Made by a program: the position numbers and the translations under genes | Notes under the pieces: model-generated | The model's input: the letters and a program-made list of their open reading frames with translations, nothing else | Database searches by the model: none | What the model was told of the DNA's origin: nothing | Shown here: piece after piece, positions 38,710 to 44,178 of the stretch | Position numbering within the stretch: position 1 is the first letter of the stretch | Layout: the number at the start of each line of letters is the position of its first letter | NCBI GenBank assembly: GCA_030614785.1 | Contig: JAUWTJ010000025.1 | Location: forward strand, 1-50,366 | Reading direction: 5' to 3' | Length of the DNA stretch: 50,366 nt | Source: Alphaproteobacteria bacterium | GTDB lineage: Bacteria > Pseudomonadota > Alphaproteobacteria > M2410

Positions 38710-38973
38710 CTACGGAGTTGTCGTAGTAGTGGTAGTAGTTGGCGACGGTGTTGGAGTCGGCGTCGGAGTTGGGCCCAACGGGTTACGATCATCACGGATC
38801 AAGCCCTCGCCGGTCATAACAAAAAGAACGCCTCCAATAATGACCCACGAACCAGTTGGCAAGGAATTCAACCACGCGGCAGAACCACCGCCGGCCATAG
38901 GCGTTTCCTGGGCAACCACTGGAAGACTGGCCATAACCGTCACAATTGCAGCAACACAAAATTTCTTAATCAT
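38710..38973 (-). CDS. Small secreted YjbE/GfcA-like protein with Thr/Pro-rich tail
   Basis: An 87-aa protein with a signal peptide (MIKKFCVAAIVTVMASLPVVAQ), a short mature part, one hydrophobic segment (GSWVIIGGVLFVMTG) and a C-terminus of TP repeats ending in eight threonines. E. coli YjbE and GfcA have the same design: a signal, a Gly/Ala hydrophobic stretch and a polythreonine end. The neighbouring yjbH and yjbF homologues support the link, which is by architecture and context rather than by alignment. It is a paralogue of the gene at 39340. A GGGAT ribosome site lies about 10 bp before the ATG. It converges on yjbF. Confidence 0.72.
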   Translation of the reverse strand: MIKKFCVAAIVTVMASLPVVAQETPMAGGGSAAWLNSLPTGSWVIIGGVLFVMTGEGLIRDDRNPLGPTPTPTPTPSPTTTTTTTTP

Positions 38974-39339: not shown

Positions 39340-39615
39340 CTACGACGTCGAGGTAGTAGTTGTAGTAGTTGTAGTAGTTGTACCAGGCGGTGAAGTGCTC
39401 ACAGGATTGCCTTCATCGTCCAGAAGAACCAGACCAGCGGCTGTTACAATAAAAATGAACCCGCCAATCATGACATAGGAGCCAACCGGCATCGAGGCCC
39501 ATGTGGCAACCTGGCCGCCCGCTACGCCGGCAGAAGGAGATTCTTGAGCAATCACAGGTGCCGCAACTATCATCGCAGCAGCAAAACTTGCCAACAGTAT
39601 TTTCACTATTTTCAT
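39340..39615 (-). CDS. Second small secreted YjbE/GfcA-like protein with polythreonine tail
   Basis: A 91-aa protein from the ATG at 39615, chosen over an in-frame GTG at 39627 because GAGG sits six bases before it. It has a signal peptide (MKIVKILLASFAAAMIVAAPVIAQ), a short mature part with GSYVMIGGFIFIVTAAGLVLL, and a tail of ten threonines followed by STS. The mature segment and hydrophobic core align with the 38710 protein (P-x-GSxVxIGG), so the two are paralogues. It is closed by a strong terminator and so is its own transcription unit. The threonine run is coded by a perfect 9-bp tandem repeat. Confidence 0.72.
   Translation of the reverse strand: MKIVKILLASFAAAMIVAAPVIAQESPSAGVAGGQVATWASMPVGSYVMIGGFIFIVTAAGLVLLDDEGNPVSTSPPGTTTTTTTTTTSTS
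39353..39382. repeat. 9-bp tandem repeat coding the polythreonine tail
   Basis: GTAGTAGTT is repeated perfectly three times (39353-39379) and continues with GTA. On the coding strand this reads AACTACTAC, giving Thr codons. Because the unit is a multiple of three, slippage would change tail length without breaking the frame. Confidence 0.8.
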
Positions 39616-39734
39616 AACAATCCTCACGCAGATTCTTCAGTTGATGATTAGTCGCGAAATGCAGTCCGGGAACTATACACACTATCCAGATCGCAAACCC
39701 CAAGCAAAAGCTTAGGAAGCTCTAGGCCAATACG

Positions 39735-39835: not shown

Positions 39836-40420
39836 TCAACGCCTGTTACGCCAACCTGTCAGAGCTCGAATCCAGCTTCCACGACGCTTTGAGATCATGG
39901 TTTCGTCTTTTTCAGACCTCCCTTGCGAATCAGAAAACGAGTCATCCACATTTTTTCCTCGCAGAATAATTCGGCCTCTTGCCTTTCTCCTGAGCGGCTT
40001 GACCGCGCCCTCACTCATCCGGGGGCGATCAAAAGAAAGGCCCTCAACGGCCTCCTGACGAGAGGCCTTTCCGGGTGGATTCCGCCTTGCAATCTGAAAC
40101 GCTGTCAGCGCCGCTTCCGCCGGATCGATCTGGAGACTTCCTTTCGAAGGGGTCGCCAAATCTACCCCCTTGGTCGAAGTGTTGCGCCATATGTCTGGAT
40201 GGCGCGGCTCCGAATAACCTGGTTGCCCACCCTGAAGACCTCTACTCCCGGATTTAAAACCCGCTGGCGTTTGGTCCGGAGACTGGTGTGGGTTTTTCAA
40301 AATTCCCTCGCGGACTTCCGCGCGCATAGTGGCTTTGGCCCTGCGCCTACGCGGCTTCCTGGTTGCCATCTCGAATTCCTGCTTCACAACATCAAGCATC
40401 TGCTGAACACGATCTGTCAT
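39836..40420 (-). CDS. Uncharacterised basic, probably disordered protein
   Basis: I do not recognise this 194-aa protein. The ATG at 40420 is chosen because AGGAG lies nine bases upstream; an in-frame GTG at 40429 is too close to it. The first 20 residues form an amphipathic helix (MTDRVQQMLDVVKQEFEMA). The rest is rich in Arg, Lys, Pro, Gly and Ser, with patches such as RKPRRRRAKATMR, LRRKARGRIILRGK and a C-terminus WIRALTGWRNRR. There is no signal peptide. It follows the proteasome-like gene by 50 bp on the same strand, so the two are probably co-transcribed and it may be a partner or nucleic-acid-binding adaptor. That is inference only. Confidence 0.6.
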   Translation of the reverse strand: MTDRVQQMLDVVKQEFEMATRKPRRRRAKATMRAEVREGILKNPHQSPDQTPAGFKSGSRGLQGGQPGYSEPRHPDIWRNTSTKGVDLATPSKGSLQIDPAEAALTAFQIARRNPPGKASRQEAVEGLSFDRPRMSEGAVKPLRRKARGRIILRGKNVDDSFSDSQGRSEKDETMISKRRGSWIRALTGWRNRR

Positions 40421-40470
40421 TGCCTTCACTCCTCATGTTGCAAGGTGGCCATCAAACCGGCCGCCTTCAC

Positions 40471-41760
40471 CTATATATTACCACCATCACGGATCAGAAC
40501 GAAGCCTTCACTGAGCGAGATTAGCGCCACGTCGACCGGGCCGCCAACAGTCTCGGGCTGCTGCATCACCTTTTGCTGGAACGAGTTCAATTTAACCAGA
40601 GAGGCTGCAGTCTCCGCCAGCTCCGCCCTCGGCAGAGTGTGGAGCGCCCGAATAATAGGGGTCGTATGTATGGCCTGTTGATACTCTTCAATCTTGTGGA
40701 AAAAGACCCCCAGTGCCTGATTGAGATTAGCTTCACTATATTGCTCAAAAAGTTTCTGCTTTTGCCTTTTATCGAGCCCGGGAAGGTCGGCGATGAGATC
40801 GGCGATCAGATGATGTGTCAGACGCAGCGTTTCAAGGAAGAGATATTGCCGGAAGTCGCGATCAATACCGGTCAGGAACGTATAGATCATTTTATCCTGG
40901 GCAAACGTCATCATCACGGGACCGCTATTGGGATCTATCGCGCTCTTTCGATCATCCGCCCGCTTCAGAATGCCGCCAAAAACGCCGCCGGAATGATAGG
41001 AGACCATGGCAGGAAACTTCTCGCGTTCACCGAACCCGGCAAAAACCAGCCCTGTATAACCTTCAAAAAAGGCATTCTTTGTCACCGTAAAAACAGCGAT
41101 CTCCGACAGCCTGTCGCGCACATCGTTTGAAATCGTCAGGCCCGGATAATCTGACGCCAGATGCTTGCCCAGCGAATCAATCAAATCACCAATCTGGTTG
41201 CGATAACGGCTGGCAAGCTTACGCGCCATATCAGAGGGAAAACAATCCAGATCCCGGCGCGGCGTATCATCGAAGTAGCTGTTATAGGCGCTGTATATTT
41301 CCTCAACGATGAATTGGAAGACTGAGTTGGATTGCGCACGCACGTTATCAGGCGAACTTTCGCGGAGATTTTCCATCTCTTTGTCGAACTCGTCGGCAAT
41401 GAGGCCAAACACCACGGCTGCATTTTTGTAGAATTCAAGATCCTGATGTTCTTGCGGGAAAAGTTCCTTGTGACGTTCGACAAAAGCCAGAAAATCCAGC
41501 GCATACTCTTCGACAGTATTGAAACGGCGCTTGGCGGCCTCCGCGCCATAAAGATTGATGATCGTTTCCCAGGGAACATTCATTATGTCTACATTGTTGT
41601 AGAACATGATGCCCACCGGGGCGCCGTCAATCAACTGATAGACCTTGTCATAACTTTGATAAATTGCATGCGCTTCACCGCGACTGGACATCACAGTCAC
41701 GGCACTGTCCGCCGCCATGGCGACTGCACCCCGATTCATCAACAGCACTTCGGAAGTCAT
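40471..41760 (-). CDS. Proteasome-like Ntn-hydrolase family protein of unknown function
   Basis: A 429-aa protein starting MTSEVLLMNRGAVAMAADSAVTV. After removal of Met the N-terminus is Thr1, Asp falls at position 17 (AADSA) and a Lys at position 38 (SYDKVYQL), the order of Thr1/Asp17/Lys33 in proteasome beta subunits and HslV. This is followed by VGIMFYNN and VPWETIINLYG. A long helical insert (about residues 80-220) separates these from a second beta region (YTGLVFAGFGEREKFPAM), and the end GGPVDVALISLSEGFVLIRDG looks like closing strands. Proteasome subunits are about 180-240 aa, so it is twice as long. No ATPase partner is nearby. GGGGA precedes the ATG. Activity is inferred, not shown. 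Confidence 0.65.
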   Translation of the reverse strand: MTSEVLLMNRGAVAMAADSAVTVMSSRGEAHAIYQSYDKVYQLIDGAPVGIMFYNNVDIMNVPWETIINLYGAEAAKRRFNTVEEYALDFLAFVERHKELFPQEHQDLEFYKNAAVVFGLIADEFDKEMENLRESSPDNVRAQSNSVFQFIVEEIYSAYNSYFDDTPRRDLDCFPSDMARKLASRYRNQIGDLIDSLGKHLASDYPGLTISNDVRDRLSEIAVFTVTKNAFFEGYTGLVFAGFGEREKFPAMVSYHSGGVFGGILKRADDRKSAIDPNSGPVMMTFAQDKMIYTFLTGIDRDFRQYLFLETLRLTHHLIADLIADLPGLDKRQKQKLFEQYSEANLNQALGVFFHKIEEYQQAIHTTPIIRALHTLPRAELAETAASLVKLNSFQQKVMQQPETVGGPVDVALISLSEGFVLIRDGGNI

Positions 41761-41991: not shown

Positions 41992-43014
41992 TCAGGCATC
42001 TTCAAGGCCATTGAACTCAGCCACAAGTCGGTCTCCGCCATCCAGCTTGCCTATCATGCCTTCGAGCTGCGCCTTGGTGTGTTTCCTGTCGCCCTCCTGG
42101 CGACGATCGCTGTGCCAGGACACAATGGTCTCCCACGGGCCATCGATCAGATCGGAGCCGGCAATCGTGCCCCCGTCTTTCGTCCTGAACGTGAGAGTGC
42201 GCATCTCACTGAGGACGACCTGGAGCGACACGGTATGAATGCCTTCATCCGTCCGAATGCGCTCGACCACCTCTCTGGCTTCGGCCGCTTCTGCCCTGCG
42301 GTCAAGAAACAGCTCCGCGTCGTCCAGAAGGTCGCAGCAAAAGGCAAAAAAGGACTCAGCGCGGATTTCGATCATCAGCAAATTGAGCAGCAGCCCCATG
42401 ATACCGGCGTAGGCTCCATCGATCTGCGGAAACAGCGGCTCGTCACCCGGGCGCGACAGGTTCTCCGGGATCTCCGGATCCGGATAGGCATCCTTGCCAA
42501 ACACCAGATCACGAAGCGCATACCACATCGCATCATGGGCCCCGATACCATCACGCTTCGGGTCACCGCCCTCGTCGGCACCGTGGGCATAAAGAAGTCC
42601 TTTATGCAGGTGCCCAATGCCCAATTCAGAAATGTTTTCAACGATGATATTCTGAAAGTCAGGGATCGTGGCCTCACAGATAAACCGTCCACGCCCCTCA
42701 AACACCCCGGTCACAGTCAAGGAATTCCAGAAAGTCTGCCCCAGACTGTTTCGGAGAAGAAATTTCTGCTGTTCGCGTGAGGGGTAGTTGGAGCGGCTCA
42801 GGAGCTCGGTGGTGGCATCCAGAATCTTATCCCCTTTTGCCTCCAGGGCCTGCTTCCAGGCCCGCACAGCCGGCCAGCGGTGAAGCGTGCGGGGGGAAAC
42901 ATAGGTTCCCGCCTCATCAAAACCGCCATGCATTTCCTCACCGGCAATAACCTGTGCCCGCGCAAAGGGGTGATCCGCCATCAGATCTTCATTGCTATAA
43001 ATCAATTGAGTCAT
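41992..43014 (-). CDS. Uncharacterised protein with ferritin-like metal-ligand pattern
   Basis: A 340-aa soluble, mostly helical protein from the ATG at 43014 (an upstream frame to 43080 is less likely). I cannot assign a family with certainty. Candidate di-metal ligands sit in helices as in ferritin-like enzymes: Glu114 (FICEATIPD), Glu130-x4-His135 (ENISELGIGHLHKGL), and Glu257-x2-His260 (RTDEGIHTVSL). The last is the E-x-x-H signature of di-iron carboxylate proteins. A helix-rich middle (AGIMGLLLNLLMIEIRAESFFAFCCDLLDD) fits the bundle. It could be an oxygenase or oxidase. It lies 231 bp upstream of the proteasome-like gene on the same strand. Confidence 0.55.
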   Translation of the reverse strand: MTQLIYSNEDLMADHPFARAQVIAGEEMHGGFDEAGTYVSPRTLHRWPAVRAWKQALEAKGDKILDATTELLSRSNYPSREQQKFLLRNSLGQTFWNSLTVTGVFEGRGRFICEATIPDFQNIIVENISELGIGHLHKGLLYAHGADEGGDPKRDGIGAHDAMWYALRDLVFGKDAYPDPEIPENLSRPGDEPLFPQIDGAYAGIMGLLLNLLMIEIRAESFFAFCCDLLDDAELFLDRRAEAAEAREVVERIRTDEGIHTVSLQVVLSEMRTLTFRTKDGGTIAGSDLIDGPWETIVSWHSDRRQEGDRKHTKAQLEGMIGKLDGGDRLVAEFNGLEDA

Positions 43015-43111
43015 GACTTTTATCCATCTGTATACAACGTTAATACCAATATGTGTGCTTCTGCCAATCGCGGCAATCATTGTCGCAAGTAATATTCGAT
43101 GTCATATGCCC

Positions 43112-44102: not shown

Positions 44103-44178
44103 GGGCCCGTAGCTCAGTTGGTAGAGCAATTGACTTTTAATCAATGGGTCACAGGTTCGATTCCTGTCGGGCTCACCA
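44103..44178 (+). tRNA. tRNA-Lys (anticodon UUU), with encoded CCA
   Basis: A complete 76-nt cloverleaf. The acceptor stem pairs GGGCCCG with CGGGCTC, including one G-U pair, followed by discriminator A and CCA. The D-arm is GCTCAGTTGGTAGAGC, the anticodon loop CTTTTAA and the T-loop GGTTCGATTCC. The anticodon TTT reads AAA/AAG (Lys). No integrase or att-like repeat is next to it. It lies between the SDR gene and a minus-strand kinase gene. Confidence 0.96.

Follow-up and report, generated by a model that had tools for sequence, protein, structure and literature searches.

A proteasome-like N-terminal-threonine hydrolase gene and its conserved small partner gene on alphaproteobacterial chromosomes and mobile elements

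The window, by which we mean the whole stretch of 50,366 nucleotides that was analysed, carries on its minus strand a gene for a proteasome-like N-terminal-threonine hydrolase of 429 aa (40471..41760), called from its open reading frame, homologues, invariant triad, predicted fold and match to PHROG 5990. A preliminary description of this DNA had placed the frame correctly. The likely start of a second gene on the same strand, an ATG at 40420, lies 50 bp past the stop codon of the enzyme gene, behind a ribosome-binding site, AGGAG (40429..40433, minus strand; a 5-base match read in the sequence). This gene (39836..40420) encodes a basic protein (pI 11.3) of 194 aa, predicted to be mostly disordered, here called the partner. 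The preliminary description had given it a side remark, as a basic, disordered, co-directional protein 50 bp downstream; it exists, has homologues at the same position, and is the conserved second gene of the module and the most informative feature of the locus.

No ATPase was seen among the neighbouring ORFs, as had been reported for this neighbourhood, and promoter and terminator scans stayed at chance level. Directly upstream of the enzyme gene, on the same strand (41992-43080), lies the gene for a 362-aa protein that has no significant match in Pfam, NCBIfam or PADLOC. Small proteins adjoin a YjbF/GfcB gene in the window (38710-38973 and 39340-39627, minus strand) and in the related MAG L001 (3138-3482); their N-terminus resembles a signal sequence, and a single hydrophobic segment and a tail of Thr/Pro repeats follow. 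A tRNA-linked island was considered for the locus and rejected, as the orientation of the tRNA-Lys at 44103 does not fit.

Homologues of the enzyme were collected from alphaproteobacterial genomes, plasmids, phages, IMG/VR and E. coli genomes. All 106 that were counted, each at <90% identity, have Thr2, Asp18 and Lys39 (window numbering), and a further row, the full sequence in alignment A1, also has the triad. The residues claimed for the window enzyme after Met removal, Thr1, Asp17 and Lys38, are thus present and unchanged across these homologues. Their codons lie on the minus strand at 41755..41760 (start codon plus the Thr codon of the predicted nucleophile), 41707..41709 (Asp18, equivalent to proteasome Asp17) and 41644..41646 (Lys39, equivalent to proteasome Lys33); a profile match, itself non-significant, aligns Lys39 with Lys33 of the T. 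acidophilum proteasome beta subunit. Since the start codon (ATG, GTG or TTG) of the homologues directly precedes the Thr codon, no propeptide should be needed, and this earlier claim extends to these homologues.

The position of proteasome Thr21 holds Thr in 101/106 homologues and Ser in 4/106. The equivalent of Gly47, at the oxyanion hole, is aromatic (Tyr in 83/106, Phe in 16/106, by a hand alignment on G43/M45, which are G50/M52 in the window enzyme). The oxyanion hole uses a backbone NH, so an aromatic residue there leaves activity possible. Gly47 has been counted within the shared core (PMC8665760). Near the C-terminus, the motif ETVGGPVDV (40528..40554, minus strand) resembles the GG(x)xDVAVI of proteasome beta in a profile alignment to 1pma_B: ETVGGPVDVALIS aligns with GGMIDVAVIT close to the end of archaeal proteasome beta, a match that is non-significant alone and serves for orientation only. 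G406, G407 and D410 of this motif are kept in 101-103 of 107 homologues.

An AlphaFold2 model of the enzyme, with 50 homologues as input, reached a pLDDT of 89.3 and a pTM of 0.87. It predicts the Ntn beta-sheet core with flanking helices that had been proposed, and 20S proteasome chains were the only PDB entries among the 50 Foldseek matches listed (best match, E 8.4e-5, probability 1.00). Global TM-scores are low because insertions break the superposition. Both checks set for the preliminary description, on the fold and on the conservation of the triad, came out in its favour. The preliminary description had noted one helical insert; helical insertion is indeed predicted, at two sites instead of one. 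The first (residues ~97-235; 41056..41472, minus strand) follows H1/H2, covers ~139 residues with helices at 103-135, 137-164, 178-185, 187-204 and 212-227, and lies between strands 49-55 and 236-242. The second (residues ~325-377; 40630..40788, minus strand), ~50 residues between H3 and H4, contains helix 331-375. Insertions at these two sites are expected to hinder assembly of a ring or double ring (PMC8665760), so the suggestion of a self-compartmentalised hydrolase is unsupported and, on the model, not favoured. Its sequence and predicted structure place the window enzyme in the proteasome superfamily with all three triad residues in place, and it would be expected to cleave peptide bonds.

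The window enzyme matched PHROG 5990 (E 1e-76), as did all 22 members of alignment A1, and had no match in Pfam, NCBIfam or PADLOC. A single-sequence search of the PDB found nothing, and a profile search ranked proteasome beta first without significance (E 0.058). Fuchs, Alva and Lupas (2021) described 22 uncharacterised families of proteasome homologues and saw no genomic context suggestive of function (PMC8665760). Both insertion sites found here were described for their families PMI-3 and PMI-4, of which PMI-4 alone is listed in phages, Firmicutes and Bacteroidetes (Table 1 of PMC8665760); our homologues occur across Proteobacteria, Firmicutes, Bacteroidetes phages, and plasmids. Because both insertions fit and only PMI-4 spans phages, Firmicutes and Bacteroidetes, the window enzyme is probably PMI-4 (Proteasome homolog with Multiple Insertions, variant 4; the largest new family in that table), an assignment made by the published description of that family, whose representative is HDY66466.1. 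Like the enzyme, PMI-4 has a proteasome core with the Thr1/Asp17/Lys triad, interrupted by long insertions, one following H1/H2 and the other between H3 and H4; it lacks a propeptide and an AAA+ neighbour and occurs in Proteobacteria, Firmicutes, Bacteroidetes and phages. Neither a conserved small partner nor the cargo positions reported below figure in its description (PMC8665760). The enzyme itself is most probably not new, and the earlier statement that the family has no assigned function holds in part: PHROG 5990 has no function or partner on record and PMI-4 has no function, but the family has very probably been described already, as PMI-4.

The enzyme shares with 20S proteasome beta and HslV the predicted fold, Thr1, Asp17, Lys33 and the Thr21 position. 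It differs from them in being twice as long, with two helical insertions, in lacking an ATPase, in the aromatic residue at Gly47 and in having no match to them that is significant by sequence. HslV is a short subunit without insertions that is partnered by HslU; the window genome encodes elsewhere a separate PF00227 protein (215-aa frame) that is probably HslV. Of the other relatives, AAH and PPH were rejected as identities since both are compact and lack insertions (PMC8665760).

Orthologues of the window enzyme occur in two related MAGs (L001, L002) at 66% and 60% identity, with homologues of the window partner at the same position (31-35% identity). We searched for partners more widely by requiring a co-directional ORF with an ATG or GTG start, a ribosome-binding site and a start between -30 and +65 bp from the enzyme stop codon. 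Among 66 non-redundant loci with enough downstream sequence, 61 have such an ORF (53 of 30-80 aa and eight of 81-200 aa), against 127 of the 381 other genes in these loci that encode ≥200 aa (56 and 71 by size class) and 15% in shuffled DNA; shared ancestry among the loci makes Fisher p-values for the 61/66 and 127/381 comparison naive. The exceptions are a locus with a partner ORF and no recognised binding site (L102), one whose partner starts further downstream and was found by similarity to that of L006 (L007), one whose partner ORF was not scored complete, probably at a contig end (L009), and two without a partner whose enzymes carry basic C-terminal extensions instead (L031, L067). In a held-out set of 35 homologues with <85% identity to the first set, a partner was judged present in about 32; two or three lack a convincing one, among them L116, whose enzyme has a C-terminal extension.

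Pairs of loci whose partners are >50% identical show 99/67/163 substitutions at the three codon positions, and this concentration at third positions argues that the partner ORF is coding. The partner diverges faster than the enzyme (for example, 56% against 88% identity). The enzymes are acidic (mean charge -16, pI 5.3) and the partners basic (mean charge +4, pI 9.3, 89% positive) and rich in disorder-promoting residues. The AlphaFold2 model of the window partner is mostly of low confidence (pLDDT 54.5), with helices only at 2-20 (confident) and 170-193 (weak). Across 59 non-redundant partners no universal motif was found, the small gain over shuffles coming from residually related groups, so the partners may not all bind in the same way. 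When viral contigs were searched with the window partner, no relatives were returned. A Pup-like tag was rejected as the identity of the partners, which have no conserved C-terminal Gly-Gly.

A tree of 72 sequences splits the family in two. A single branch (support 99/96) sets ten enzymes without a C-terminal tail apart from the rest; this tailless clade comes from alphaproteobacterial genomes (chromosomes), includes the window enzyme and has partners of 105-194 aa, a spurious scan entry for L007 being set aside. The remaining enzymes end in the tail KRKHYFxxxLNxxFF, come mostly from phages, satellites and plasmids, and have partners of 34-70 aa, so that within the tree partner length tracks the presence of the tail without overlap. 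The held-out set mostly agrees, with partners of 37-76 aa for tailed enzymes and of 139, 110 and 90 aa for tailless ones; the exceptions are both tailless, L121, whose partner has 64 aa, and L117, for which no convincing partner was seen. The two-gene module is very likely real, and we found no earlier description of it in the literature.

The mobile copies recur at a few kinds of place, among them sites next to CI-like repressors. In one E. coli prophage the enzyme gene lies antisense beside antiterminator Q, and in another directly after the phage repressor and co-directional with it. In streptococcal satellites it is found at or near the 3' end, in a streptococcal prophage at the right end after the endolysin (peptidoglycan hydrolase), and in Providencia and Stenotrophomonas phages close to the lysis genes. 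In IMG/VR loci, at least 8 of the 27 immediate upstream genes that share the strand of the enzyme gene encode phage repressors, and others encode endolysins. Genes of the opposite strand flank 11/44 enzyme genes on both sides, against 28/258 other genes, with crude gene calling. Sites after the repressor, beside Q or lysis genes and at the right end are known lysogenic-cargo positions; rexAB, beside cI, are lysogenic-conversion or prophage cargo genes, and the mobile enzyme copies occupy the same kind of genomic position, no sequence relation being claimed. The gene is patchily distributed (15/385 alphaproteobacterial and 22/5426 E. coli genomes). In the family of the window organism itself it occurs in 3/4 genomes, near surface-polysaccharide genes, and several chromosomal copies sit among housekeeping genes. 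One of these, in the alphaproteobacterial chromosome L133, is a tailless member inserted between queA and tgt, two genes that normally neighbour each other (gene names from reading the sequences).

We propose, at a probability of about 0.5, that the enzyme is an ATPase-free N-terminal-threonine peptidase under the control of a dedicated partner, and that mobile elements carry the pair as accessory cargo. Removal of Met would leave the enzyme ready to act, with Thr1 as nucleophile, the Lys as base and Asp17 in support. The basic, disordered partner would bind the acidic enzyme and control it by blocking, gating or substrate delivery, standing in for an AAA+ ATPase. The window copy belongs to a sister clade, on alphaproteobacterial chromosomes and with a longer partner. 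Should the partner replace the ATPase as regulator, it would provide another way to control proteasome-type enzymes. The conserved second gene and the recurring phage-cargo positions make this family of orphan sequences testable in E. coli. The partner gene often goes unannotated because it is so short, as in both E. coli prophages examined (RefSeq).

For the mobile copies, the most likely role would be to protect the lysogen or element against competitors, a role proposed because most sampled copies sit on prophages, satellites and plasmids in lysogenic-cargo positions. Defence genes are carried by prophages and PICIs (PMC11364771, PMC10884400). Known defence systems were not clearly enriched among 124 neighbours in PADLOC, where 148 models matched, the listed ones being mainly methyltransferases and HTH regulators; this is a raw count, uncorrected for background. 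Neither the window enzyme nor the window partner matched a catalogued anti-phage defence protein in PADLOC, and the literature yielded nothing on the family in phage defence beyond PMC8665760. With no clear enrichment of such genes nearby and some chromosomal copies amid housekeeping genes, we hold the defence reading well under even odds. Its fullest form is doubtful: a new two-component, ATPase-free, proteasome-type conflict module in which the fast-evolving, disordered partner would check or aim the Thr peptidase, and in which invading phages, by disturbing the partner or the complex, would trigger infection-blocking proteolysis.

The pair might instead serve ordinary accessory proteolysis, as an ATP-independent peptidase with an adaptor or assembly factor for proteins of the host or phage, a pair that mobile elements would carry for host fitness and that would have no defence role. 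The location of the chromosomal clade amid housekeeping or polysaccharide genes, the lack of clear defence-gene enrichment and the probable HslV in the window genome would suit such a role, which we consider unlikely given the recurrent lysogenic-cargo positions, the patchy distribution and the fast evolution of the partner. That the partner is a dedicated substrate, from which the enzyme would free an active peptide or signal by cutting or splicing, is improbable: it is strictly adjacent, small, disordered and fast-evolving, as such a substrate might be, but the partners share no cleavage-like motif, and no obvious secretion signals were seen when their sequences were read by eye. Still more improbable is a transpeptidase or ligase that attaches the partner, or some other tag, to targets. 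Protein ligation is the activity of connectase, another proteasome homologue that carries insertions (PMC8665760), and multiubiquitin/E1 genes lie close by in five plasmid loci (four of them read, and R602sp from near-identity). The connectase insertion is at S3/S4 (PMC8665760), whereas those of the enzyme are predicted elsewhere, and the partners have no conserved terminus. That the linkage merely reflects the dense, co-directional packing of genes in phage genomes, the two proteins being functionally unrelated, is hardly tenable: a following small or mid-size ORF also accompanies 33% of the other long genes in the same loci, but the 61/66 enzyme loci far exceed this rate (127/381), the pairing persists on chromosomes, on plasmids and where the gene is antisense to its surroundings, it is kept over 20-30% enzyme identity, and partner length tracks enzyme clade and tail, with the held-out set in agreement.

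Control of an ATPase-free peptidase by the partner is the reading that we retain. On Rhizobium and Mesorhizobium plasmids (L033, L127, L128, L031), multiubiquitin and E1-like (ThiF) genes lie within a few kb of the enzyme gene, with a ClpP-like protease gene also in the three Rhizobium loci and at least two different arrangements overall; this cluster may be a shared accessory or defence island. In L015/L018 and on a Hyphomicrobiales UR115 plasmid (L130), the enzyme gene is found in two overlapping frames and is probably broken by a frameshift.
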